Assembly (NCBI GenBank): GCA_030694265.1
Contig: JAUXYP010000020.1
Location: 100,862-164,861 of the forward strand
Source of the DNA: Sulfuricurvum sp.
GTDB lineage: Bacteria > Campylobacterota > Campylobacteria > Campylobacterales > Sulfurimonadaceae
Length of the DNA stretch: 64,000 nucleotides
Direction of reading: 5' to 3'
This document shows positions 22,698-37,614 of this stretch, in pieces (positions within the stretch are counted from its first letter, which is position 1; every line of letters starts with the position of its first letter). The notes beneath the pieces are model-generated. The model worked only from the letters and a program-made list of their open reading frames with translations. It ran no database searches and was not told the origin of the DNA. The translations under genes and the position numbers were made by a program.

Positions 22698-23234
22698 TTA
22701 ATAAAGTCCGAATTTTCCGTCATTGCGTTTGTACATAACGCGCATTTTGCCCTCATTGTCCATAAAGACTTCAAAAACTTTGGTACTCTCTTTGAGTTTT
22801 TCAACGATTTCGGCTACTTCTTGGGGTTTGTAAAGTACAAGTTCTGTCGGAACGATTTCATCTTCCATCCCTTCACTGATTGCATGCAGATCCACAGGAG
22901 TGGCAGCAGCGGCTTTGGCCTCATTGATACCGACATGGCGATGGTCGCTCTCTCTGTCATGAAGACGGCGAAGCGCTTTTTGCGCACGATCGATGGCGAT
23001 GTCGATTGCCGCGTACAAATCATCGTCACGCTGTGAAATAACGATCGTATTTTTACCGGCGATGTTGATGGTAAATTCAACGCTCACCCCTTTTTTACGT
23101 TCATTCATGGAAGCTACAGCACTGACGCTGATAAGGTCGAGATGGTATTTTTCGAGTGTTTCAATAGAGCGCATTAAATGTTCTTTATTAGTATCGCTTA
23201 GTTCGATATGACGTCCGACGAGAGAAATATTCAT
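22698..23234 (-). CDS. hpf: Ribosome hibernation-promoting factor, long form
   Basis: Long-form HPF binds the 30S subunit and dimerises ribosomes into inactive 100S particles during starvation. The 178-residue product has the N-terminal HPF/RaiA domain (MNISLVGRHIELSDTNKEHL, with DDLYAAIDIAIDRAQKALRR) and the C-terminal dimerisation domain (LYKPQEVAEIVEKLKES, then MDNEGKMRVMYKRNDGKFGLY read in two parts). The ATG at 23234 is chosen over a GTG three codons upstream because AAGGTGG is then correctly spaced. The 309 bases upstream (23235-23543) hold its promoter and, further on, the structured leader of the opposite operon. Confidence 0.93.
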   Translation of the reverse strand: MNISLVGRHIELSDTNKEHLMRSIETLEKYHLDLISVSAVASMNERKKGVSVEFTINIAGKNTIVISQRDDDLYAAIDIAIDRAQKALRRLHDRESDHRHVGINEAKAAAATPVDLHAISEGMEDEIVPTELVLYKPQEVAEIVEKLKESTKVFEVFMDNEGKMRVMYKRNDGKFGLY

Positions 23235-23420
23235 GGATTCCACCTTGTGCTAATATTGTAAGAAATTTGATTATAACATACAAATAACAAACGTCAATAT
23301 ACAGGTGAAAATAAATGAGATACAATAAAAATAAATAGTAATCTTAATTTCTTTTTAATAATCTTAGGAATAAACTGATGTAAATTGTGCTCTTTCTCAT
23401 TAGCATCGTGTGAGATAATT

Positions 23421-23538
23421 GGGATAGGGCTTGAAAATATGGGTTTTTTGGTCGATATGGTGTGATTCATACTGTTTATTTTATCACGTGTATGCTACCG
23501 AGCCCTGATTATGCAGCGCCCTAAAAATCCCTAGGAGG
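23421..23538 (+). ncRNA. Candidate structured 5' leader (riboswitch-like) of the 23544-30013 operon
   Basis: A long-range stem can form from GGGA (23421-23424) with TCCC (23528-23531) and TAGGGC (23425-23430) with GCCCTA (23518-23523). Its 3' strand ends two bases before the ribosome site AGGAGG (23533-23538). A competing stem pairs AGGGCT (23426-23431) with AGCCCT (23501-23506). Between them GTGAT (23462-23466) can pair with ATCAC (23483-23487), and CATAC (23468-23472) with GTATG (23490-23494); these interleave as a pseudoknot. I could not match the conserved cores of known riboswitch classes from memory. The alternative is chance pairing in an ordinary leader. Confidence 0.4.
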
Positions 23539-23543
23539 ATGAA

Positions 23544-26500
23544 ATGAAATCTTTTACGCTTTTACCGCGGTTATTTGCCGTTTTTGGACTGGTGGTGATT
23601 TTTGCTGTATCGTGTTTTGGCGATACATTACCTGATACAGATGATTTCAACACAAGTGCTAAAGATGGCTGGAGCGGAACAAATGTTACATGGGATAGTA
23701 CAAATTTACGACTTTCCATCAATCGTGACAATACAGCTTCAAAAACCTATGATTATGGTGTGGCAAATGCCAATAAAAATGTTTTGTTTACTTTGAGCGC
23801 TATTGAAATTAGTAGTTGGGAATCGGATGATGATTTAGAGATATATGTCAATGGAGCAAAGGTTGTCGATAATACGGTGGATGGAACGAAACAATATTCT
23901 TTTTCGGCTATACTCGATGCAAATGGACAAGTGACTATAACAATAAAACCAAATACCGATGATAATGCTGAGGACGTTCAAATTGATAATATTACGGTTA
24001 ATATCAGTTCTGTTTATCTAGGATATACGACAGGAGATTTTCTTTTACGTAAACAGATCTATGCCAAGGGGAACATGAAAACCATTGGAAATACTGTTTT
24101 AGTTGCTCCCAATGGGAGTGATAACAATAATTATTGTGCGACATACACTAATGGAGCATTTATTATAGATGCTACTGAAAGAAATAGTGCTTATTATTTA
24201 TGTGGGTACAGTGTAGATGGGACCCAAACAAATGCTACGACTTCGGAACTTACAATGTCATCATCGTCTTCCAAAGTCTTATGGGCGGGATTGTATTGGC
24301 AGGCACTTGTAGCGGAAGGAAATTTTAATGCTTCGATGAGCATTGGGTTACGTCGGGAAGAAGACACTGGATCATCGTATGTGAATCTTCAGCCAGATGA
24401 ATTGCATTATCAGCATGATTCACAGGAGACTGACTATACCAGTTATTCTGCGTTTAAAGATGTAACCTCCACATTTTTGTCCAATGATTGGCAAGAGGGA
24501 AATTATACGGTTTCCAATGTACTGGTCCATGAAGGAAAAGCTGGTGGTTTGGGTAGCTATGGTGCATGGTCTTTAGTGGTAATTTATGAGGATACGAGTG
24601 CAGCGGCCAAAGAAAAATTTCGTAGTTTTTCAATCTTTGACGGATGGAAGCAAGTTACCAGCGGTACGGATGCCATTATTCCGGTAAGCGGATTTTATAC
24701 TCCCGATCGGGTTTTGACATCGAGTCAGGCAAAAGTATCGGTATTTACAGCAGAAGGGGATAAAAATATCCTTGGAGATAAATTTGAAACGACAAATTAT
24801 AATACAACTTTACCCGTAGTGCTTCCCTCTGGATCTGGTAATACATTTCAATCATTAGTGACAGGAGGTGGAGCGCGTACCCCAGATGCGATCAACAATC
24901 AGGGTATTGACATTCAGACATTTGACATTGGGGATCTTCTCACAAAAAAACAAACGGACATGAGTTTCACGTTATCATCAACCGGAGATGTTTATTGGCC
25001 CTCTATGGTGGCATTTTCAACAGAGCTTATTGCCCCAAATTTGTGTTATGACTACTCGTTTAGACAGGACGGTGCATATCTTAAAACTGATAATAATGGT
25101 ACACAGCCTCCGCTTATTACGGGGTACATCAGTAACTCTTTAATTGATACATCGATTTATATACGTAATAATGAAGCGGATATTTTGGCACAGGGAATGT
25201 CTTTTTCTAGTGATGTCAATGATTCAATGTTTCAGTATGTCCCTGGAAGTGCTGCTAGTTCGAATGTCAATGGATCAAGTTTAATCACCAGGGCAGATAC
25301 GGTTGGAACGTGTGGCTATACGGATTCTGCAACAACACCGGTTGCCTGTACAAATGGATCAGATATTCGTATCGGTTTGGGGAGAAATGCAGCAGGTTAC
25401 AGCCAAGGTTCTGCCGGAACGCTCGGTGACAAAGAATTTGTCTATGCTAAATTTACTATGAATCCCATAGGTATTGCAGGATTAGGGGATGTGAATCAAT
25501 CCTTGGGCTTCAAATTGAGTTATTACATTATTCCAAAAACAGGGGCAGCAGCAATTCCGTATACCTATGAGCTTGGAGAAGACATTGGCATGTGTCCACC
25601 GACCTCTGGTTATGAACCTGCATGGGGTACTTTTAATACAGTCGAAACTGGAGCAACAACCGTTGGGGGAATACCGGTTAACAATATTCGGACAAAGGTC
25701 TCACGAGAACCCTTCAGGATAGATGTTGCCGGATATGGAAAAAATGCGGTAACACAGAAATATGATGTTAAACCAACTACGGATATTGCAACGACACTTT
25801 TGGTCGAAGCGATCGATAGCGGTGCTTATCATGATGCAAATGCGACGTGTGCTAATCCTGCTTCTTCTATATCTCCTGCAGTTTTCGTTCCATATACCTA
25901 CTCGACTGCAGTTGGGGATACTACTGTTTCACTTCCGCTTCAAAATGTGGCTTTTCATAACTTTGCGGTTAAAAATGGAGCATTCCGTATTTGGTATTTT
26001 GACGATAGCAATGGGACGTTGATTCAAAACTGGACGGCTAGTACTTCGGACGCGACACGTTTGACTTTGACAGGTATTAGCGGTTTGTATAAGAGTGGAA
26101 CTCATACGGTGTGTACGACGGAATGTTCTGTTTCGACATCGGTTAGCTGTTTTAACTGTATCAAAGCTAATTATGCCAAACCGTTATGTTCGAGAGATAA
26201 TTTTTCAGTACGCCCTGAGTCGTATGACATACGATTATATGATGTGAATCAGACTCTTGCTCAAAATGATGCCATTAAAGATAATACGAAGGTTGCCATT
26301 TCTGAGCAATATCATTATCCGCCGGCGTATGCAACATCATTGGGAAGAATGCCTCTCGCAGCAGGTTATACCTATCGTTACGATTTAAATGCGACCGGTC
26401 ATGATACGGATTTGTCGAGAGTTCCTGGTTATACACGTAATTTTAATAATGCGGATCCTGAATATACGGCAACGATGAAATGGGGTTCGGCTCTAACAAC

Positions 26501-27902
26501 GGCTACATGTAATGATACATCCGACAAGCCAGTCAGTTTTTATGTTGCAAGTGGTCAGCTAAGCAATTTGGAACATGCAGTGGATGAGGTAGGTGAATAT
26601 AGATTCAACATGTATGATGCCTCGTGGACAGAAGTGGATTGGAAAACATCGCTACTAGCACATCATACTATTCTAAATGGTTTCGAGCTTATTAGTGGCG
26701 ATGCTTCCGATTGTAGAAAAGGAGTTACGTCGTCTGATGTTGATGCTTATAAAAGAGTAGGATGTGATATCTCGAGTGATCATAATAATACGGTAACAAG
26801 CCAATATTACAAGGATCCATTGGCACAATTTAAGCCTGCAAAATTTGATCTTACTGGAGTTGCGTATGGTCTTGGGATGAATTCAGCACTTATAGCAACT
26901 GGAGGTACAGGATTCGTTTACGATTCGAATCTAAGCATCCCTGGTGACATGCCAATGGCGGTGAGTTCTAGTGGAAGTATTAAGGCCTTGGGATATAATA
27001 ATACTGTATTGAGTAACTTTGTGACGGAGTGTTACGCATCTGATATTAACGTTTCAGTCTCGCATGATGCCAATGATACGTACAGTTTTATGGGTCGTAT
27101 TGATAGCAATGCCACCTATAATGCCACAACATCACCGATGCAGACAATAGCCCAAAACAGTTTTTTGAAGGCTAATAATGGTGCGACCAGTCCTACGATA
27201 CGACTCAATGTTGATCGAGATGTGAAAGCACCTCAGTTACCGCTTACGGTTCACTACAATGATCAAAATGTTTCGTGTGCTAATACATCAGAGTGTGATA
27301 TGAGTGCAATGTCGTTAAGTGTTCCCAATACGGCAACAGGTAGTAAAGCAATGAACTTTGATGTGACCCATGTATATGGACGAGTTATTCCTAGCAATGT
27401 ACGGATTATGGGGCTAATAGCGTTTGAGACGATCGCACGATACGAAGTATACATGATGGATAATCTTGTGGGGACACCATTGATTGCTGATCCTTTTGAT
27501 GCAGCATGGTATGTTAATACATTGCATACGGAAGCACAGTATGGAGATGCAATCGTAGGCTATGTAGATCCGGTTGCTGGGTCATCACTACCTGCTACAT
27601 CAACGTATGCTACGGGGGTAGAAACGTATCGCTTCAATCCATATACAATACGTCAGGGATATAAAGGACATATAAACACTGAGGGATGGTTGTGGTACGG
27701 TACGAATGCTTTGTCTTATATTGATCCTGATGCGGGGCATTTAGATTGCTTAACGCATCCGTGTTTTGATATCACCTTTGGGAGATTGATCGGCAATACG
27801 GGAAGTGCAAAAACGGAATCTGAAGTGCATAAGTCGAACAAAAAAACATCTACAGGGACAGGCTGGAACACTACGAGTGAATATGCGCCTGCAATTCGAT
27901 GA
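23544..27902 (+). CDS. Very large exported protein of a prepilin operon (MshQ/PilY1-like position)
   Basis: This 1452-residue protein has a signal peptide (MKSFTLLPRLFAVFGLVVIF, cut near residue 31). An N-terminal beta-sandwich-like domain (about 32-155) is followed by a block resembling DUF11-type surface proteins, with KVLWAGLYWQ, VTSTFLSNDWQ and GSYGAWSLVVIYED. A cysteine-rich segment (about 860-890) ends in CSRDNFSVRPESYDI, which recalls the mid-region of MshQ/DUF6701 proteins. The rest is beta-rich with scattered cysteine pairs (CANTSECD, DCLTHPCFD), suggesting disulfides. No membrane anchor or sorting signal is seen at the end. It is followed by three prepilin-like genes with a four-base overlap, so it is probably displayed or exported by them. 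The family is not recognised with certainty. Confidence 0.7.
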   Translation: MKSFTLLPRLFAVFGLVVIFAVSCFGDTLPDTDDFNTSAKDGWSGTNVTWDSTNLRLSINRDNTASKTYDYGVANANKNVLFTLSAIEISSWESDDDLEIYVNGAKVVDNTVDGTKQYSFSAILDANGQVTITIKPNTDDNAEDVQIDNITVNISSVYLGYTTGDFLLRKQIYAKGNMKTIGNTVLVAPNGSDNNNYCATYTNGAFIIDATERNSAYYLCGYSVDGTQTNATTSELTMSSSSSKVLWAGLYWQALVAEGNFNASMSIGLRREEDTGSSYVNLQPDELHYQHDSQETDYTSYSAFKDVTSTFLSNDWQEGNYTVSNVLVHEGKAGGLGSYGAWSLVVIYEDTSAAAKEKFRSFSIFDGWKQVTSGTDAIIPVSGFYTPDRVLTSSQAKVSVFTAEGDKNILGDKFETTNYNTTLPVVLPSGSGNTFQSLVTGGGARTPDAINNQGIDIQTFDIGDLLTKKQTDMSFTLSSTGDVYWPSMVAFSTELIAPNLCYDYSFRQDGAYLKTDNNGTQPPLITGYISNSLIDTSIYIRNNEADILAQGMSFSSDVNDSMFQYVPGSAASSNVNGSSLITRADTVGTCGYTDSATTPVACTNGSDIRIGLGRNAAGYSQGSAGTLGDKEFVYAKFTMNPIGIAGLGDVNQSLGFKLSYYIIPKTGAAAIPYTYELGEDIGMCPPTSGYEPAWGTFNTVETGATTVGGIPVNNIRTKVSREPFRIDVAGYGKNAVTQKYDVKPTTDIATTLLVEAIDSGAYHDANATCANPASSISPAVFVPYTYSTAVGDTTVSLPLQNVAFHNFAVKNGAFRIWYFDDSNGTLIQNWTASTSDATRLTLTGISGLYKSGTHTVCTTECSVSTSVSCFNCIKANYAKPLCSRDNFSVRPESYDIRLYDVNQTLAQNDAIKDNTKVAISEQYHYPPAYATSLGRMPLAAGYTYRYDLNATGHDTDLSRVPGYTRNFNNADPEYTATMKWGSALTTATCNDTSDKPVSFYVASGQLSNLEHAVDEVGEYRFNMYDASWTEVDWKTSLLAHHTILNGFELISGDASDCRKGVTSSDVDAYKRVGCDISSDHNNTVTSQYYKDPLAQFKPAKFDLTGVAYGLGMNSALIATGGTGFVYDSNLSIPGDMPMAVSSSGSIKALGYNNTVLSNFVTECYASDINVSVSHDANDTYSFMGRIDSNATYNATTSPMQTIAQNSFLKANNGATSPTIRLNVDRDVKAPQLPLTVHYNDQNVSCANTSECDMSAMSLSVPNTATGSKAMNFDVTHVYGRVIPSNVRIMGLIAFETIARYEVYMMDNLVGTPLIADPFDAAWYVNTLHTEAQYGDAIVGYVDPVAGSSLPATSTYATGVETYRFNPYTIRQGYKGHINTEGWLWYGTNALSYIDPDAGHLDCLTHPCFDITFGRLIGNTGSAKTESEVHKSNKKTSTGTGWNTTSEYAPAIR

Positions 27903-28612
27903 GTAGTATAATGAAATTTCGCCGAGCTATGGCTATGATTGAGCTTATATTTGCCATTGTTATTATCGCCATTACGGTCATCACTATTCCTGTTATGATA
28001 AATGTTGCAGGTGAGTTAAGCAAACGAATGTCGATAGATGATGATGTGATGACACGTTTGACCAGTCAGATGATTGATAAATTTCAGGCACGCTGGGGTG
28101 GTGAATACACAGGGGTTGATACCAATGAATCAACCCCTGTGTATATCTCAGAAATCAATACCTCGGCTGATTTGAGATGTTTACGCACGGATGGCCTTCA
28201 TTTCTGGCGCCTTAATCCTGATTCAAGCGTTGAATGCAATGCGTCGCAAGCTCCGCAAGAAATTCCAGCTGCATCAACAGCAGATGGAGGAACAGCAAGT
28301 GGTGATGTTGCAGGTGGTTTAGAGATGCTTAATGCAGGTACGGAAACATTGGCAGTGACTTCATCGACGGGAGAATCGGTTGATATTAATGCAACCTATA
28401 ATGTTCGTTATGTTGACTCTAATGTCACAATCATAGGCAATACTGCCACTGCTGTTTGGAGACTGGGTTCATCGGGTACGATTACTGAACATAATGGCGG
28501 ATCACTGAATTCTCCAACGCACTTAAAACGTGTGGTTGTTCGTTTTTGGAATCCTAATATGCAAGTGGATACGACACTGAGCTTTTTTAAATCGAATATA
28601 GGGAGCAATTAA
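27899..28612 (+). CDS. Prepilin-like protein 1 (type IV pilin/pseudopilin N-terminus)
   Basis: This is a 237-residue protein with a class III signal: FRRA, then MAMIELIFAIVIIAI. Cleavage would fall after A10, leaving Glu at position +5 of the mature protein. The hydrophobic helix spans about residues 11-35. The rest has Thr/Ser/Gly-rich segments (PAASTADGGTASGDVAGG) and ends in a beta-rich stretch. It overlaps the giant gene by four bases and the next prepilin by one (TAATG). It is probably a minor pilin or pseudopilin of GspI/GspJ or PilV/PilW type; the exact class is not assignable. Confidence 0.75.
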   Translation: MSSIMKFRRAMAMIELIFAIVIIAITVITIPVMINVAGELSKRMSIDDDVMTRLTSQMIDKFQARWGGEYTGVDTNESTPVYISEINTSADLRCLRTDGLHFWRLNPDSSVECNASQAPQEIPAASTADGGTASGDVAGGLEMLNAGTETLAVTSSTGESVDINATYNVRYVDSNVTIIGNTATAVWRLGSSGTITEHNGGSLNSPTHLKRVVVRFWNPNMQVDTTLSFFKSNIGSN

Positions 28613-29538
28613 TGAAACCATTACGACGCGCCTTTACGATGATCGAATTATTGTTTGTTATTGTCATCCTAGGAATTATTGGCGGAATTGCACTCGAAAC
28701 AATACGACAATATTATGAGGGGATATATCGTACTCAGACATACACACAGCGTATTAGTGAAGCAGATCATATTTTGGATCAGTTGACGAAGTATTTTGAA
28801 AATGCAATTGATCTCTCAATTACAAATATGGATATGGATGCAGCTGATGGAGCGCTTGTAGGTAACTGTGTGGGTGATCCAACAATTGAGGCTGAAAATG
28901 CAGCACATGATTATACGACAACATTCGTAGGTGTTGATATTGATGGTCTGCGCTCTCCTGGAAAACCGGGATGGAGTGAAATGGCGCAAACAGGATTTAT
29001 AGGAACTTCGATTACTTCAAATGATGCGAATTTTTCGGCTGCAAATTCGATTATAACGGCACTTTATCCTGCATCCAATATTCAAAACTCTGCAATTTAT
29101 AATTATAATGGTGTCACATATGATTCGTGTGCTGATTTTTATGCACTTAATGGTGACGCTTATTACACAGTTACTGGTGCATTGGTTGGTAATACCTTGC
29201 CTTTGGCCAATAATGCAGGTACAGCTTCTCCCAAGTCTGATCGCAAATATCTTCTTCGAACAGGATATGCATTTAGGGTTTTAGATACAGGTGAGTTTGC
29301 AATGTTTTCAAATTTTAGACCATGGAAAGGCGAAGTTTACAGTGCTGGAAAAAGAAGTATTTTAGGCCAGAACGTTGCCAGTTTCTATGCTGATTTCAAT
29401 AACACTAATAATTTTAACACAAGAGGAACATTGTGGCGTCTTAAAGTGTGTATGAGAGGGCTAGAATCCAATCTAAGCGATAGTGATACAGCAACACAGG
29501 AAATCTGTCGTGAAAGGAAAGTCCATGTACGTTACTAA
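28612..29538 (+). CDS. Prepilin-like protein 2 (PilW/GspJ-like)
   Basis: This 308-residue protein has a textbook Campylobacterota prepilin leader: MKPLRRA before FTMIELLFVIVILGI, with Glu at +5 after cleavage behind A7. The large C-terminal domain contains cysteines in GNCVGD, DSCADF, KVCMRG and EICRER. The size and the position before a protein lacking the +5 Glu fit a PilW/GspJ-like minor pilin. Its 3' end overlaps the next gene by 14 bases. Confidence 0.78.
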   Translation: MKPLRRAFTMIELLFVIVILGIIGGIALETIRQYYEGIYRTQTYTQRISEADHILDQLTKYFENAIDLSITNMDMDAADGALVGNCVGDPTIEAENAAHDYTTTFVGVDIDGLRSPGKPGWSEMAQTGFIGTSITSNDANFSAANSIITALYPASNIQNSAIYNYNGVTYDSCADFYALNGDAYYTVTGALVGNTLPLANNAGTASPKSDRKYLLRTGYAFRVLDTGEFAMFSNFRPWKGEVYSAGKRSILGQNVASFYADFNNTNNFNTRGTLWRLKVCMRGLESNLSDSDTATQEICRERKVHVRY

Positions 29539-30013
29539 GCGCAAGGGTTTTGCGATGATATTGGCAATATTTATTATTGTACTGGTAGCTTTGGGCGGCG
29601 TTTTATTGTTAGGTAATGCGTCGATAGGGACAAAAACCGCAGGTGATAACTATTTCCGAGCACAAGCAGAACTTTTGGTCGACAGTGCGACTGAATTTGC
29701 GGTGATGAGAGCGCAGGATGTTAACACTTCTGTAGTAGCACCCAATAATCATTGTTTGGAAAACTTGAATATTACGGTTCAAGATGCTGCTGGAGCAGCT
29801 GCATACGATGTCAATGTGACGATACGATACTCTTTTCAAGGTGCTGCACCATTAGCTTGCTTACCTGCTCTAGCGGATATTAATACTGTTTTAGCGCAAA
29901 ATACGGGTAATCCAACCATGATGCTCATTGATACTACGGTGACAACAAATACAGCTGCAAATTTATCAACGGAACCGATACGGGTACATAAAAGATCTTG
30001 GCAGAAGCTGTAA
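29525..30013 (+). CDS. Prepilin-like protein 3 lacking Glu+5 (PilX/GspK-like)
   Basis: The 162-residue product begins MYVTKRKG before FAMILAIFIIVLVALGG. After cleavage behind G8 position +5 is Leu, not Glu. Loss of that glutamate is typical of GspK, the tip pseudopilin of type II secretion systems, so this may be the tip-complex member. The start at ATG 29525 has AAAGGAAAG upstream and is preferred to codons 14 residues earlier. It is the last gene of the operon; a short hairpin follows at 30034-30050. Confidence 0.65.
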   Translation: MYVTKRKGFAMILAIFIIVLVALGGVLLLGNASIGTKTAGDNYFRAQAELLVDSATEFAVMRAQDVNTSVVAPNNHCLENLNITVQDAAGAAAYDVNVTIRYSFQGAAPLACLPALADINTVLAQNTGNPTMMLIDTTVTTNTAANLSTEPIRVHKRSWQKL

Positions 30014-30033
30014 ATAAAGAGAAGTGATACTTT

Positions 30034-30050
30034 CGCGGGAGAATCCCGTG
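30034..30050. terminator. Short hairpin between convergent operons
   Basis: A seven-base stem (30034-30040 with 30044-30050, one G-U pair) with a GAA loop lies between the prepilin operon and the convergent signalling genes. No clear T-run follows on either side, so terminator function is only suggested by position. Confidence 0.35.
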
Positions 30051-30064
30051 AATGATATGAAGGG

Positions 30065-30442
30065 TTAAATGGTAAGCTGAGCGATTTTAGAGATAACGTC
30101 TTTCTCGCGCACTGGCTTCATTAAAAAACCGTTTGCCCCACACTCTAGTGCTTCTGTTTTCTTCGTTTCATCGGTTGTTAGTATGATGACAGGAAGCTGA
30201 CGAAGGGATTCGTCGGCTCGAATGACTTTGAGCATTTCAATACCCCCCATAACAGGCATAATGATATCCAGCAAGATAATATCAATATCATCTTGAGCCT
30301 TGAGAATTCCTATAGCGTCAGCACCATTCTTGGCTTCTACTACTTGGTAGACATTTGGGGCTTTCATAAGCATCGTTTTGAGTAATTTTAAATTGATCAT
30401 ATCATCATCAACTGCTAGTACTTTTAGTTTGTTATCGACCAT
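30065..30442 (-). CDS. Single-domain response regulator (CheY-like)
   Basis: This is a 125-residue receiver domain with nothing attached. The acidic pair is in VLAVDDDMINLKLL, the phospho-acceptor aspartate in IDIILLDIIMPVMGG, the switch threonine in VIILTTDE and the lysine in FLMKPVRE, so it should be phosphorylatable. It is the last gene of a four-gene signalling operon on the minus strand, 14 bases after the hybrid kinase, and is a likely output or shuttle of that relay. Without a DNA-binding or enzymatic domain its target must be another protein. Confidence 0.88.
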   Translation of the reverse strand: MVDNKLKVLAVDDDMINLKLLKTMLMKAPNVYQVVEAKNGADAIGILKAQDDIDIILLDIIMPVMGGIEMLKVIRADESLRQLPVIILTTDETKKTEALECGANGFLMKPVREKDVISKIAQLTI

Positions 30443-30456
30443 TCATGATTCCTAAT

Positions 30457-33400
30457 TTAGATAAATTTTTCAAATACAAGACGTAATAGGTCTTTGTTGA
30501 CTATATTTTTGATAATCTCATGTACATACATGGCGTCGTTCTCGTCTTCTTTAACATTCGGATCAATCAACATGACCAACGAAATGTCGCTGTTCTTGGC
30601 ACGAATGGCATTATACAGTTCTTTGAGGTCGAGTTCTTTCAATGTTTTGTCAAATAACGCAACCTTGTAGCGTTTATTGGCAATATTTTCCTGTAACTGT
30701 GCTACAGAATCAACACATTCGTAAGTGTATCCCAAATCATCGAGAATTCGACTAAACAGTTTCATCTCAAGGGAATTTTGTTTTGCTAGTAAGACGTCTG
30801 CATCATACGCTGAAACTTTTGGCTCAGGTAGAGATTCACTTATCTCTGGAATGGCTGTTTCAACTTCTGTGACTATTTCATCTTCGGTAATCTCACCCTC
30901 CACGCTAAATTCCAAGTCCGGTAAAATTTCATTATCATTTACGGTTGCAACACTCTCATCAACTGCTTCACTCGAGAGGTGATCTGCTGATTTTGGTACA
31001 ACATTCAGCTCTACAATTTTATGCGAGAGAAAATTATTGAGCAATGAAATGATCTCGCTACGAACCAGTGGTTTCGTTGTATATTCATCCATACCTGCGG
31101 CCAAGAAACGCTCACGGTCACCCTTAAGAGCATTCGCGGTCAGGGCAATAATTGGTATGTGATGCTGATCGTAATCGGCTTCATAATCAAGAATCTCTTG
31201 AGTAGCTTCGATACCATCGAGTACAGGCATCTGAATGTCCATAAAGATAAGATCAAATTGATAGTTTTTGCGTTTCTCAAAGGCTTCTAAACCATTGTTA
31301 GCGACGGTAACATCCAGTCCAATATCTTCTAGGGTACGACGTATCAGTTTTTGATTGATGATGTTGTCTTCTGCTACAAGGACGGATGCTTCAAAACGTG
31401 AGTTCTTCTCATCGAATTTTTTACGACGTGAAGATTTTTGCTTTCGATTGTTAAATGCTTCAATATCATAGGTTTCAAGTATGGTACGAATTTTACTGCT
31501 GTTGACCGGCTCATAAAGAACTTTGAATAAATCGAGACCCATAGCATCAATTTTTTTCATATAGTACGACTTTGTAATAAGGACTAATTGTTCTTGAGTT
31601 GATGAAAACTGTATTAAATCAACATCATTTGTGTAGTCATTGTCGATAAATAAAAGGTCGTAATTGACTTGACGTTCGAGGAGTTTCAGCTCTTCAACAT
31701 CATGAAAGGTCGTGTAACTGACCCCAAAGTAATCTAAATATTCTTTGAGATAGGTTGATTGTGTTTTTTTCTTGCTTCTGCTCTCATGAATAACGGCATT
31801 GATATTTGAGAAAGAACCTTTAATAGGGTCATTCAGCGTCTCAATTTCTTCGAAGGAGAGGGTAAAGAAGAACATGGTTCCATCACCTGGAGTACTCTCA
31901 AGATCCAGTTTACCTCCCATAAGTTCGACAAAACGGCTTGAAATAGTCAGTCCAAGACCTGTTCCGCCATATTTTCGGGTAATAGAGGTATCTGCTTGAG
32001 AAAATGCTTCAAAAATACGTGATTTTTGCTCACTTGTAACTCCAATACCACTGTCTTTTACCTGGAAGCGTACGTGTGCACGATTTGGCTCATCACTCTC
32101 AATTCGGCGTACATCAACATTGACACTGCCCCCTGCATTGGTGAATTTAACCGCATTACTGAGAAGATTAATAATAACTTCTTTAATTTTGGTTGGATCC
32201 CCTTTGAGAGGACGTTCAAGGCTTGGATCAATGAAACATCCAAGGTCAATGTGTTTTTCAGATGCACGTACGGCATAAACGTCAACGGCACTTTCAAACT
32301 CTTCAATAGGGTTAAAGGCAATGTCTTCGATTTCGAGTTTATTGCTCTCAATTTTTGAAAGGTCAAGAATGTTATTGATGATTTCGAGGAGGTTTTCAGA
32401 ACTTTTTTCAATAATATCAATAAATTCACGTTGTTCATCATGGAGTTCTGTATCTTTGAGAAGCTCGGTAAATCCAACAATACCATTGAGCGGTGTACGA
32501 ATTTCATGGGACATATTGGCCAAAAACATGGACTTGGCTTCACTGGCTTCTTGCGCAAATTGTTTATCACCCATTGTTTGCTCAATGATACGTTCTAGAA
32601 GCGCATAGGCTTGGGCGGTACCATCGGCAGTATCAAGGTTGATTGATTTACTGAGGGCATCTGCCTCGTTATCATGTGTATCTTCAGCAACACGTTTAAG
32701 AACGGACTCAAGATTTTTGATATTTTTTGCAATTTCATTGGAGAGCAAGATTCCCAAAATACCGATCAGTATAGAGACGATCCATACGGTAATAGCAGTG
32801 ATGAGAAATTGGATTGCTTGTGCTTTTACAACGGAAGCTCTATTATCCATCGAATCCAAAATAATCTTTTCACCCTCATTGATTGCGTTGACTTTTTCAG
32901 AGATCATTGCAAACCAAATACCGGATTGGGTATCGTAGTCTCCTTTTGTACTGGAGCGTAAAATACTGCCTCTTTCAGTTGTAATATCCTGTAATAATTC
33001 TGTATTGTCCTCGGAAAGAAGAGAAGCTTTGAGAGCTGATTGAAGTCCCTTGTCTGTAACTCCTTCTAGGTTCAGAGCATCTGCATTACCGATGAGGGTG
33101 ATCCACTTGTCAAGCTCTTCATCCTCTAAGGCATTTCCACGTGATAGCAAATAGGTTAAATAGTCACGCTCTAAGCTGGTGTATTCATTGGCACGTACCA
33201 AAGAGAGATAATTGTTAGCCATGGATGCAACTTTATCATCCAATAATACGGTTGAAAGAGAGGAAAGCTCTTTAATAAGGGCCTCTTGCGGTTTACCGTA
33301 AACGTCATTAAAAATTTCTTCAAAATCAGCCGTTTTATTGTCTACCGAAGGGCGCGACTGATGGCGTGATTTTTCCAATGCCGCAATGATGGCTACGATT

Positions 33401-33705
33401 TGAGGGGAATTATTATGAGCACTAAATTCCTTGATTGTAGTATTAACTATGGCACGTTGTGCATGCAGTGATTTTAGAGTGGCTGCAGAAGCATTTCCCA
33501 AATACATCACCGTCATACCACGCTCACGCGCAATGTCGTTGATCATGTTATTTAGTTGCTTATTACTCTCTAGTCTTGCTTGGAGGATTTGGGCAGATTG
33601 AAAGCTTATATAAGAAGTATAAACGTAATAAGTAGCGAGTGAAAATAGGATCAATATCGGAAAGAGACTGATCAGGCGAAGTCGATTTTTAAGTCCTAAG
33701 TGCAT
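30457..33705 (-). CDS. Hybrid sensor histidine kinase with NIT sensor domain and three receivers
   Basis: This is a 1082-residue inner-membrane kinase. TM1 (about residues 12-32) and TM2 (298-322) flank a periplasmic helical domain whose [18 protein letters not shown] stretch matches the nitrate/nitrite-sensing NIT family. Then come HisKA with H400 ([11 protein letters not shown]), HATPase_c with [10 protein letters not shown] and YGGTGLGL, a degenerate receiver (about 635-750; the lysine position reads YEPV), a complete receiver (775-895) with D823 in [12 protein letters not shown] and a TKPL lysine, and a degenerate C-terminal receiver (about 983-1082; the acidic pair is replaced by AKQN). 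It is 13 bases from the HPt gene. Ligand identity is inferred from family only. Confidence 0.85.
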
Positions 33706-33717
33706 AGTGGATTCCTC

Positions 33718-35313
33718 TTAAAGTTGTTCAAGATAGCTAATAAGGCGTGAAGAAGCTTTTTTGGCTTCTTGGGCATCATTGGTAATGGATAAAATAGCGA
33801 GCTCATCAGAAATTTCGCTAAGACGTAAATTGTCGCTAATGCCTTTGAGCTTAGCGGCACTGCTCCTCCATGTATGGGTATCAAATGCTTTGATAGCTTG
33901 AATAATTGTTGTACTCATCGCTAATGCGTCGGCTTTATAGTCATTGAGTAATTCTTCCATGAAGCTGGGTTCCATACCAAGCGCCCCAGCAACTGCGTTT
34001 AGATCGTAATGCAGTGGTACTACTATAGTTTCTTCATCAAGAACAGTATCTAAAAGTTCTTCTTCTAATTCAAAAAATTCCTTTTTAAAAGGGACCTCTT
34101 CTTCTTTTACATCAGCGGATAGGTCATCTTCTAAATCAATGTCATCGAGATGCACCAAAAGTGATTCATCATCATTTTGCTTGAGAGAAAATGCGTAAAT
34201 ATCTTCTATGGGTTCAGGGGTGATTTCTATGGAAGGCTTGGTTTCTTCTTTTTGCACAGAAGGTGATTCTTGAACTTCTGTGACTTCTTTTCCCTCTAAT
34301 TTTGCAATAATGCTGTAATAATACTTGAGATTGGCCTCGACCTCAATGGGATCAGAAGAGCTGTTAATAACACTGAGCGTTTCAAAAGCGTTTTCAACGC
34401 GAAGATTGGCAGCAACTCCTTTGAGTTTATGAGAGAGAATGTGCAATGTATTGATGTCATTTTTTGTGGCTGCTTCAAAGAGTTCATTTTTAAATTCATG
34501 CGATTGCTGGATAAAGTCACCGATAAATTCTTCAATTAAGTCAACAGGCAGACCAAGTTCATTGGCGGCAACACGCGGATCGTATATGTAAGAACTATCA
34601 ACTTTATGATGGGAAAGATATCCTTTTTCTGCCGTAGAATATTGAGTACTTCCAAGCATTGGACGTTGTTCTGCTGCGGGAGAAACTTGAGCTGGTTTAG
34701 TTACAGGTGTTACAATTTCTTTTGCGTGCTCTTCTGGAAATACATCAAGCTCTTCAGCGCTTAATGGAGCCATTAGGGAGGCATAAATGTCATCCGTGTC
34801 ATCAAGTGAAGTTGGCTGTGTTTTGGGAATATCAAAGATAGTAGGTTCACTTAACTGGGTGGCAGCAAGGTGTGTGTAATCAGGTAGCGGCGCCGTTTGG
34901 ATATTTTGTACGATAGGTTCACTTGGCGGAGTTAACTCTTTGATTGGTGCTTTAGGAGTTATAACGTGTGGTTTGAATTCCTCACCGCTGATGCTTTTTA
35001 TCTGGGACATTTCGATACTATAGCCATTTGCGGAAGGTTGATTGCACAGATGAAAAGGGCTAACGCTGAGGCGGCAGCTGAATGTGCGTCCGTTTCCATG
35101 TACGATTGCACTTGAGGCATCCGAATCGGCATGCAGCAGAAAATCTATCCATCCAAAATTTTTAAAATTATGAATATAGCCTGGTTCGTTGGCAAAAAGA
35201 TCAGCAACATCGGAGCAAACGTTTAAAAGTTCTTCTAATGAATCATAATTGAGAAGATGCAAACCCTCATCGTCAATACCAATAAATTCTTGTTTATTAT
35301 TATAAAGTAACAC
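33718..35313 (-). CDS. HPt phosphotransfer protein with one intact and one degenerate HPt domain
   Basis: The 531-residue soluble protein has an N-terminal PAS-like or FIST-unrelated alpha/beta region (about 1-105), a long Pro/Glu-rich linker and two HPt-like helical domains. The first (about 250-345) has the acceptor H295 in LSHKLKGVAANLRVENA. The second (about 437-531) has AAKLKGISDNLRLSEI with alanine at the histidine position, so it cannot be phosphorylated but may still bind receivers. Between them lies another acidic linker. It should relay phosphate between the neighbouring hybrid kinase and the single-domain regulator. Confidence 0.75.
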   Translation of the reverse strand: MLLYNNKQEFIGIDDEGLHLLNYDSLEELLNVCSDVADLFANEPGYIHNFKNFGWIDFLLHADSDASSAIVHGNGRTFSCRLSVSPFHLCNQPSANGYSIEMSQIKSISGEEFKPHVITPKAPIKELTPPSEPIVQNIQTAPLPDYTHLAATQLSEPTIFDIPKTQPTSLDDTDDIYASLMAPLSAEELDVFPEEHAKEIVTPVTKPAQVSPAAEQRPMLGSTQYSTAEKGYLSHHKVDSSYIYDPRVAANELGLPVDLIEEFIGDFIQQSHEFKNELFEAATKNDINTLHILSHKLKGVAANLRVENAFETLSVINSSSDPIEVEANLKYYYSIIAKLEGKEVTEVQESPSVQKEETKPSIEITPEPIEDIYAFSLKQNDDESLLVHLDDIDLEDDLSADVKEEEVPFKKEFFELEEELLDTVLDEETIVVPLHYDLNAVAGALGMEPSFMEELLNDYKADALAMSTTIIQAIKAFDTHTWRSSAAKLKGISDNLRLSEISDELAILSITNDAQEAKKASSRLISYLEQL

Positions 35314-35325
35314 TTTTTCTCCCTT

Positions 35326-35739
35326 TTAGCTTTCTTTTGCAATCATTTGTTGGTAGAGAAGTGCAGTTTCTTCGATGTTTCTGCGTGAAGCCGGTTTGCG
35401 AGCAGCCATGTATCCTTTTGGTTTACCGTTATCATCAAATATAGGAGACACTTCGGTATCAACCCAATAATATTTTCCATCTTTACGAAGATTTTTTACC
35501 AATCCATGCCAAATCGTACCGGATAAAATAGTCTTCCATAATTGTTCAAAAGCCGCTTTTGGCATATCGGGATGGCGGATGATGTTATGTGCTTCTCCTA
35601 CAAGTTCATTGACGCTATAGCCGGAAATTTCACAAAAACGTCGATTGGCAAAGGTAATAATCCCATTTAGATCGGTTTCACTAACAATGGCACGTCCGTC
35701 AAAAAAATATTCTTCATCGACAGGATTGGGTCTATCCAT
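35326..35739 (-). CDS. Stand-alone PAS domain protein (Aer/CetB-like)
   Basis: This 137-residue protein is essentially one PAS domain: TDLNGIITFANRRFCEISGY, then GEAHNIIRHPDMPKAAFEQLW, then WHGLVKNLRKDGKYYWVDTEV. That pattern is typical of the redox-sensing PAS domains of Aer and of Campylobacter CetB, which bind FAD. There is no output domain, so it must signal to a partner, probably the hybrid kinase or HPt protein encoded next to it. It is the first gene of the four-gene set. Confidence 0.8.
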   Translation of the reverse strand: MDRPNPVDEEYFFDGRAIVSETDLNGIITFANRRFCEISGYSVNELVGEAHNIIRHPDMPKAAFEQLWKTILSGTIWHGLVKNLRKDGKYYWVDTEVSPIFDDNGKPKGYMAARKPASRRNIEETALLYQQMIAKES

Positions 35740-35805
35740 AAAAACTCCTTAATTACTAGCACTATAAACACAAGTATAGGAATATGGCATAAACAAGGTA
35801 AAAGA

Positions 35806-37614
35806 TTACTGAGATTTTGGTAAATTATAATAATTATGAACATTTTTAGCCCCAGATGTTCCAATAAGCTCTTGCAGGGTTTTAAAATCCGCTTTTGCAA
35901 TCGTTTCAAAGGTCCCGTAGTACGTGAGTAATTTTTGAACTTTGCCGGGGGTGATTCCTGGAATGGTTAGAAGATGAGAACTTTGATCCTCTTTTAGTTT
36001 GCTTTTTTTGTGAAAGATTATGGCACATCGATGGGCTTCATCTCTGAGTAATTGGATCAATTGGAGTCGTTTATCGCTGGTGTCAAGTCTAAAAATACCC
36101 TCATCGCTATGAAGAATATCTTTGGCAGAACCTTTTGCACGGTGAGCTTTTGCATCCACTTTTTCTTTACTAATACCGATGACATCAATGAGTGTGCCGT
36201 TGGAGTGCAATAATTCCACGGCAAGAGAACGCAGGGTTTCGCCTCCGTCGATGACCCATAAATCTGGAGGAGGATTGGTTTCGAATCCTTTAATTCTGCG
36301 TGTGAGCATTTCACGCATTTGAGAATATTCGTCTTTATGTTCCAAATGATAGGTACGGTACCCTTTTTTATCAAAACTACCATTGCTGTAGGCAACCATT
36401 GCCCCCACAGTAGCCTGCCCTGCAAAATGAGAGTTGTCGAAGGCTTCAATGCGATTGGGGATATTTTCAAGCCCAAACAGCTTGGTGATTTGTTCAAGGA
36501 TAATGCTTTTATCGCTTCGCGGTGATTTGAGTAGCTCAAGCGCATTTATATAAGCTAACGCGGTGAGTTCTTTTTTTATTCCCTGCTTTGGAAGTATAAT
36601 GGAAGCTTTTTTTTCAAATAATTGACTCAGATGCTGTGTGACCCAATCTTGGGATTCAAATGCTTCATGGAGTAGAATAGGGGCGATAATAGGAGGCTTT
36701 TCGTTTCCATAGTAGTTAACAAGTGCTCGTTCATAGGCTTCATCACGTGAATAAAGGTCATTGGCCACAAAAAAATCATGGCTACTGGAGGCGATTTTCC
36801 CTTCACGGATAAACAGGCGCACAATGCATCCGCGCAGTTCATCAGTCGCAATAGCAAAAATATCGTAGGCTTCGTTGGAGGCAAGGTCGATTTGAGAGTG
36901 TTCTGTACTGCGCCCAATTCGCTCAAGTCGGTCACGTAGGGCTTTAGCTTCTTCAAAGCGTAATTCTTCGGCATAAAATTCCATTTTATCACGAAGTTTT
37001 GGGATGAAGAGCTCTTTATTCGCTACGTATTTCGTTGCAGTGTCTATCATTGTTTTATAGTGGCCCTTATCAACGGGAAATTCACACGGTCCTAAACATT
37101 GATTCATTTGATAATAGAGGCATGCCTTTTTCCCTTTAAGGCAGCTTTTTTTCTGAACCAAAGGGAGCAGTTCATAAAGAGAATCGAGAATATCCCGTGC
37201 TCCCGTAGAAAAAGGGCCAAAATAGCGTATGGCTTTGCCTTTGATAATTTTTCGCGTAATGTCAAAGCGCGGATATTCTTCCTCGAGATTGACGTAGATA
37301 TAGGGGTAGGTCTTATCATCTCGCAGGAGAATATTATACTTTGGTTTGAGCTGTTTGATAAGTGAGTTTTCCAAGATAAGGGCATCATGCTCGTTTTCAA
37401 CGATGAGGTAATGCAATGAGGACGTTTCATTGAGCATTTTTTGGATGCGCAACGACAATGTGGCTTTTGGGGAGAGGTGTGGCGTGAGATTGAAATAGCT
37501 TTTGACCCGTTTTGATAGGTTTTTGGCTTTTCCAATATAGAGAATGCGCCCTTTGGCATCCAGATATTGGTAGATACCGGCGCAATGAGGCAGTGAGCGT
37601 ATTTTTTCAATCAT
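35806..37614 (-). CDS. uvrC: UvrABC system protein C
   Basis: UvrC makes the dual incisions in nucleotide excision repair. It has 602 residues. The N-terminal GIY-YIG nuclease (AGIYQYLDAKGRILYIGKAKN) is followed by a cysteine-containing zone (KKSCLKGKKACLYYQMNQCLGPC), the UvrB-binding UVR motif (DKMEFYAEELRFEEAKALRDRLE), and the RNase H-like C-terminal nuclease (EAFDNSHFAGQATVGAMVAYS, DGGETLRSLAVE), plus a terminal helix-hairpin-helix (TIPGITPGKVQKLLTYYGTF). It looks complete. The preceding gap of 66 bases separates it from the PAS gene. Confidence 0.95.
   Translation of the reverse strand: MIEKIRSLPHCAGIYQYLDAKGRILYIGKAKNLSKRVKSYFNLTPHLSPKATLSLRIQKMLNETSSLHYLIVENEHDALILENSLIKQLKPKYNILLRDDKTYPYIYVNLEEEYPRFDITRKIIKGKAIRYFGPFSTGARDILDSLYELLPLVQKKSCLKGKKACLYYQMNQCLGPCEFPVDKGHYKTMIDTATKYVANKELFIPKLRDKMEFYAEELRFEEAKALRDRLERIGRSTEHSQIDLASNEAYDIFAIATDELRGCIVRLFIREGKIASSSHDFFVANDLYSRDEAYERALVNYYGNEKPPIIAPILLHEAFESQDWVTQHLSQLFEKKASIILPKQGIKKELTALAYINALELLKSPRSDKSIILEQITKLFGLENIPNRIEAFDNSHFAGQATVGAMVAYSNGSFDKKGYRTYHLEHKDEYSQMREMLTRRIKGFETNPPPDLWVIDGGETLRSLAVELLHSNGTLIDVIGISKEKVDAKAHRAKGSAKDILHSDEGIFRLDTSDKRLQLIQLLRDEAHRCAIIFHKKSKLKEDQSSHLLTIPGITPGKVQKLLTYYGTFETIAKADFKTLQELIGTSGAKNVHNYYNLPKSQ

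Follow-up and report, generated by a model that had tools for sequence, protein, structure and literature searches.

In the MSHA systems of Vibrio and Aeromonas, three minor pilins and the large MshQ protein, related to the DUF6701 family, are encoded in the order mshD-mshO-mshP-mshQ, the last of the pilins being without the glutamate at position +5 (Glu5). The structural genes mshB-mshQ of V. cholerae make up one operon and mshI-mshF another (PMC4624765). Loss of mshQ lowers piliation, and MshQ has been termed a putative adhesin only (PMC7096442) and is listed among the MSHA components of unknown function (PMC9815625). A large exported protein is likewise encoded with minor pilins in Myxococcus and Pseudomonas, where PilY1 accompanies FimU, PilV, PilW and PilX and binds the minor pilins through its C-terminal part (PMC7541494).

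The window analysed here, a stretch of 64,000 nucleotides from contig C16 of a Sulfuricurvum sp. genome of 2.15 Mb, contains a tightly packed plus-strand operon of four genes (23544-30013), which encode an exported protein of 1452 residues, hereafter the giant, and three prepilin-like proteins. The features of the operon are the following:

23534..23539, plus strand: ribosome-binding site AGGAGG of the giant gene, seen in the sequence
23544..27902, plus strand: giant exported MshQ/DUF6701-related protein, 1452 aa, proposed tip protein (open reading frame and homologues)
23622..24008, plus strand: hypervariable N-terminal region of the giant, residues 27-155, absent even from the nearest relative
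25029..25577, plus strand: Ig-like beta-sandwich domain of the giant, residues 496-678 (AlphaFold model, VIA-align)
26133..27533, plus strand: conserved DUF6701-related region of the giant, residues 864-1330 (A7 profile, bridge to PF20419)
27300..27899, plus strand: proposed C-terminal docking module of the giant, residues 1253-1452, ending in EYAPAIR (identity crossover, tail concordance)
27899..28612, plus strand: prepilin 1, 237 aa, RRA^MAMIE, Glu at +5, minor pilin in the MshD position
28612..29538, plus strand: prepilin 2, 308 aa, RRA^FTMIE, Glu5, minor pilin in the MshO position
29525..30013, plus strand: prepilin 3, 162 aa, RKG^FAMIL, Leu at +5 (no Glu5), minor pilin in the MshP position

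The giant starts with a signal-like segment, MKSFTLLPRLFAVFGLVVIFAVSCFG. Its gene overlaps that of prepilin 1 by 4 nt (ATGA), prepilins 1 and 2 overlap by 1 nt (TAATG) and prepilins 2 and 3 by 14 nt, which confirmed the chain of one exported protein and three prepilin-like genes described in the initial annotation. Prepilin 2 matched Pfam N_methyl above the cut-off, and prepilins 1 and 3 showed the type IV prepilin pattern by sequence, with a basic leader, a [G/A]^ cleavage site and a hydrophobic N-terminal helix. The missing Glu5 of prepilin 3, which had also been pointed out before, is what would be expected of a GspK/MshP-like subunit; no match of this 162-aa protein to the GspK family was found in Pfam or NCBIfam. 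The operon is bounded on one side by hpf (22698-23243, minus strand) and on the other by a minus-strand response regulator/hybrid kinase group starting at 30065. Its GC content is 41.0%, compared to 41.5% for the window, and there is therefore no compositional sign of recent foreign origin. The minus-strand group (30065-37614) comprises a response regulator, a hybrid kinase of 1082 aa and an Hpt-like protein of 531 aa; the regulator and the hybrid kinase adjoin the cassette in most of the same-genus genomes sampled and could regulate it.

The locus resembles MSHA in combining one MshQ/DUF6701-related giant with three minor pilins whose order matches and whose sizes are close (MshD 187-226, MshO 309 and MshP 157 aa), the last without Glu5, and in that its genome also encodes an MSHA-type machine. 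A complete Aeromonas MSHA locus (L227) and one MshL-bearing Legionella locus were recovered by searches of plasmid collections. Using hhalign, the window prepilins matched Aeromonas MshD, MshO and MshP at 96%, 95% and 89%, respectively, over the N-terminal ~65-80 residues only. In contrast to the D-O-P-Q order of MSHA, the giant comes first in the window (Q-D-O-P), and the structural and machine genes lie on different contigs. Furthermore, Ig-like modules in strings and a proposed separable C-terminal docking module set the window giant apart, and its own sequence relation to MshQ is only indirect. The Aeromonas caviae record that contains L227 is filed as a plasmid, but with 4.9 Mb looks like a chromosome, and its mshQ (28560-35096) is interrupted by two transposase genes.

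No significant match of the window giant was found in Pfam, NCBIfam or PHROGs, nor did a sequence search of the PDB yield any match with the giant or with the family profile; a match to an unrelated characterised family was thus not seen. DUF6701 (PF20419) was detected neither in the window giant, which stays below the cut-off, nor elsewhere in its own genome. However, hmmscan placed DUF6701 over the cut-off in four relatives, L230 (E 1.2e-14), where the same three prepilins follow, L232 (E 3.3e-13), L233 and L234. The DUF6701 region of L232 in turn matched A7, a profile built from giant residues 864-1330, at 6e-36; the region of the giant carries a CSRDNF.[VI]RP motif near its start. In a genome search, DUF6701 was over the cut-off in 15 of 101 genomes. 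This search scored L069 at 55 bits, a match that hmmscan with default filters missed, so that the DUF6701 case is built on L230, L232, L233 and L234 only. The C-terminal part of Aeromonas MshQ is a DUF6701 domain (E 6e-99). As relatives match both A7 and DUF6701, the C-terminal family of MshQ, the giant family can be tied to MshQ, and the MshQ likeness previously proposed for the giant held through these relatives. A direct profile comparison with Aeromonas MshQ was insignificant (2%); by this chain of sequence matches the giant family is related to MshQ, and its membership in the MSHA MshQ group is likely, if only by this indirect route.

Structure models of the giant were almost all beta, with a mean pLDDT of 74 for residues 26-830 and of 85 for residues 780-1452. 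Their closest structural neighbours were Gram-positive pilin-like and adhesin Ig-like domains: residues 496-678 resemble Gram-positive pilin and antigen I/II modules (Z up to 9.5, rmsd 2.6, 125 residues), and residues 886-1414 are closest to FdeC (Z 9.3, 292 residues, rmsd 6.6), a similarity that at so high an rmsd indicates no more than a comparable string of Ig domains, FdeC and invasin being outer-membrane adhesins of the intimin/invasin type. Whole-model Foldseek matches had very low TM-scores and are read only as Ig-like beta sandwiches. The match to the nearest relative (L037/G078) begins only at giant residues 133-141. Relatives' bodies carry Calx-beta, cadherin-like, Big_9 or laminin-G domains. 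The DUF11-like stretch reported earlier was likewise found in relatives (DUF11/DUF7507), but not in the window giant. The last 37 residues were of very low confidence when modelled alone, which might fit a tail that folds on a partner.

The giant shares with PilY1 a variable N-terminal and a conserved C-terminal part. However, PF05567, the PilY1 propeller, was looked for in the window giant up to E 10 and in 34-35 cropped relatives up to E 0.05 and matched none of them, and the models are beta sandwiches instead, so that a PilY1-like identity is unsupported. No such propeller appeared among the listed Foldseek matches, which alone would leave one possible. The initial annotation had suggested a tip complex with minor pilins on the model of both MshQ and PilY1. 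The complex itself is plausible, with prepilin partners that evolve with the giant and a fitting machine elsewhere in the genome, whereas the PilY1 likeness was not supported. By analogy, giant and prepilins would still work like the PilY1/minor-pilin tip complex, with the defining domain of PilY1 absent.

Far from being lineage-specific, as had been supposed, the giant belongs to a family found throughout the phylum. A search with the window giant alone gave matches in 142 of 200 same-family genomes, and A7 matched in 137 of 298 high-quality genomes of the class, representing 35 of 58 genera. Relatives with a giant include Sulfuricurvum, Sulfurimonas, Sulfurospirillum, Sulfurovum, Hydrogenimonas, Nitratifractor and Nitratiruptor. 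Of 110 distinct giants with 3 kb or more of downstream sequence, 98 had prepilins 1, 2 and 3 as the next three genes; the exceptions were mostly tandem giants and split or duplicated prepilin 2 genes, with a few loci without recognisable prepilins. The order giant-prepilin 1-prepilin 2-prepilin 3 was also held at 18 of 20 loci in other families, and the cassette usually adjoins hpf, with hpf and often recG, fliW-like or proC-like genes as common neighbours across families. The gene set is thus conserved in order across Campylobacterota families far beyond chance. A comparison of lists within the class placed prepilin 3 in 136 of the 137 giant-positive genomes and in 42 genomes without a detectable giant; most genomes with prepilin 3 (136/178) therefore also have the giant.

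Several loci depart from this layout. L132 (family f5) has a giant without adjacent prepilins, and some Campylobacteraceae-like genomes have a giant-like gene behind hpf or no adjacent one. In L242 (6419-11000) and L244 (2-4552), the prepilin trio is followed by hpf and then by a gene matching the N-terminal profile of the giant; here the giant has apparently been relocated across hpf. Two giants in tandem are found in L048, L056, L060 and L193, in L056 and L060 in front of a single prepilin set, which suggests stored alternative tip proteins. In more distant families (L131, L134, L135, L137 and L245), a fourth prepilin of the Glu5 type, of ~225-240 aa, follows prepilin 3.

The C-terminal end of the giant was found to go with the type of its prepilins. 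Among 118 complete giants, the final residue is W in 95 (mostly [RK]RhxW) and R in 23 (YxPxxR-like), and this tail type equals the type of prepilins 1 and 2 in 98/98 cassettes. It changes four times on the giant-body tree, a quick tree on which all four changes are forced by strongly supported branches, and once each on the prepilin 1 and prepilin 2 trees; the body upstream of the C-terminal module has been swapped between types about three times. Sliding identity placed the crossover near residue 1250, upstream of which identity tracks the body and downstream of which it tracks the prepilins. Between giants that share prepilins but differ in body, identity is 12-35% upstream of ~1250 and 33-56% past it, and those with similar bodies and different prepilins show the reverse. 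The distances of all four genes correlate beyond those of hpf/recG (partial r 0.48-0.82; 0/500 permutations as high). In the same-genus loci L073 and L075, all four genes are 12-30% identical to those of the window, whereas the flanking hpf/recG are 74-83% identical, so that the cassette was exchanged there as a unit, as if replaced in place.

The crossover and the tail/prepilin match are as expected of a giant that binds the minor pilins through residues 1253-1452 and whose remainder is an exchangeable binding part. More generally, exchangeable Ig-like bodies would recombine upstream of ~1250 onto a C-terminal docking module, with the RRhxW or YxPxxR tail as the lock for a given minor-pilin trio; to this modular display of adhesins as a phylum-wide and general mechanism of MshQ-type (DUF6701) tips we would give even odds. 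The final W is not conserved as a side effect of the ATGGTGA gene overlap, since 20 giants without an overlapping prepilin 1 gene keep it. The C-terminal ends of the prepilins are strongly conserved as well (NIGE..RRF, CKEKTIF and RRTIQKL, or their type-A versions, in alignments A2, A3 and A4; window 28562-28612, 29500-29538 and 29975-30013) and may be part of the binding site for the giant's tail.

As noted in the initial annotation, no motor, platform or secretin gene is close to the operon: no T2SSE, T2SSF or secretin gene was found on the window's contig, all matches being on C9, C10, C7 and C20. Contig C9 (L089) encodes, in MSHA order, three proteins in the MshI/J/K position, a secretin, an AAA ATPase, a TPR protein, an MshEN-type motor and a platform protein. 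The secretin reached 269 bits against the MshL equivalog (TIGR02519, cut-off 250), and the core proteins were the best matches to MshL, MshE, MshG and the MshM type among those compared, above those of a second machine on C10/C7 (L090, L091). No prepilin gene was found beside the C9 machine, whereas prepilins of its own adjoin the second machine. C18 carries two isolated major-pilin-like genes, and a prepilin peptidase (PilD, C20) and two PilT-family genes (C20 and C9) were over the cut-off. The pilin-less C9 machine would complement the machine-less window and C18 pilins. Across the class, a strong MshL match was found in 133 of 137 giant-positive and 114 of 161 giant-negative genomes, so that the machine can exist without the giant, for example in genus g26. 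Seen the other way, of the 247 genomes with strong MshL, 133 have the giant, as against 4 of the 51 without (Fisher p 1.7e-10, a phylogenetically clumped contrast uncorrected for kinship). Within the family, where nearly every genome has MshL (190/200), this co-occurrence carries no information.

Taken together, the four products most probably form the tip and priming complex of a type IV pilus of the MSHA type that is retracted by PilT (probability about 0.7). The three prepilins would be processed and assemble as a trio, most likely with the prepilin without Glu5 on top, by comparison with GspK/PilX, and the giant would cross the inner membrane via its signal peptide. Its C-terminal ~200 residues, with the conserved tail at the end, would dock on the trio, and the docked complex would prime the pilus for extension by the MSHA-type machine, whose motor, platform and secretin genes lie elsewhere in the genome. 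At the extreme tip of the extending pilus, the Ig-like body and the hypervariable N-terminal region would point outward and could bind a surface or neighbouring cells. We infer in this way the physical docking, the tip location, the ligand, the use of the C9 machine and adhesion rather than DNA uptake; the four genes probably build the adhesive tip of a retractable pilus across most of Campylobacterota.

Alternatively, the C9 machine could be the orthologue of the Campylobacter Cts transformation machine and the operon part of a DNA-uptake pilus or pseudopilus, with the giant as DNA tip receptor or competence plug. The gene content of the Cts machine is similar to that of the C9 machine. Because TIGR02519 extends to the secretin of Campylobacter-like genomes, in which a related machine is used for DNA uptake, the secretin cannot separate MSHA from competence use. 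Genus g26, inferred to be Campylobacter-like, has strong TIGR02519 matches and weak prepilin 3 matches (E 1e-9 to 1e-16). However, no giant was found in g26, and uptake there thus does without it. The acidic giant (pI 4.6) is poorly suited to DNA binding, the diverse bodies and the domains of the relatives are typical of adhesins, and the second machine with its own prepilins could serve uptake in the window genome. This explanation is therefore considered unlikely.

It appears less likely still, at about one chance in ten by our reckoning, that the prepilins form a T2SS-like pseudopilus cap pushing out the giant as secreted or surface-anchored cargo rather than as part of a pilus tip. Prepilin 3 lacks Glu5 like GspK, and PilY1 itself has been likened to a T2SS substrate (PMC7541494), but the machine has an MSHA-type secretin and motor, PilT is present, and the exact match of giant C-terminus and prepilins is expected more for a permanent complex than for released cargo. 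That the cassette works with the C10/C7 machine, which is present in the genome alongside that of C9, is the least probable explanation, given the prepilins adjacent to the former, their absence beside the latter and the strong MshL match in nearly all giant-positive genomes.

For the adhesive tip complex, the crossover at ~1250 and the perfect tail/prepilin match provide a precise docking hypothesis for MshQ-type proteins, and the natural chimeras show where to cut in order to test it. MshQ, a long-unexplained MSHA component, thereby gains a concrete and testable role, and the cassette points to an attachment device shared by Campylobacterota of sulfidic and hydrothermal habitats. Sulfurovum indicum induces its MshL on elemental sulfur (PMC10045233). 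The contact with minerals or sulfur once suggested for the giant itself was unsupported, with evidence neither for nor against.

A second, paralogous cassette type was observed at a different chromosomal site in other genomes of the window's genus (L229, L232, L233 and L234). It comprises a shorter DUF6701 protein with prepilin 1- and 2-like genes nearby, and the two proteins that could be read to the end terminate in GVK[LV]FR. A homologous stretch (L215) was also present on a contig labelled as Thermoproteota archaeon, a label that is probably due to a binning error.
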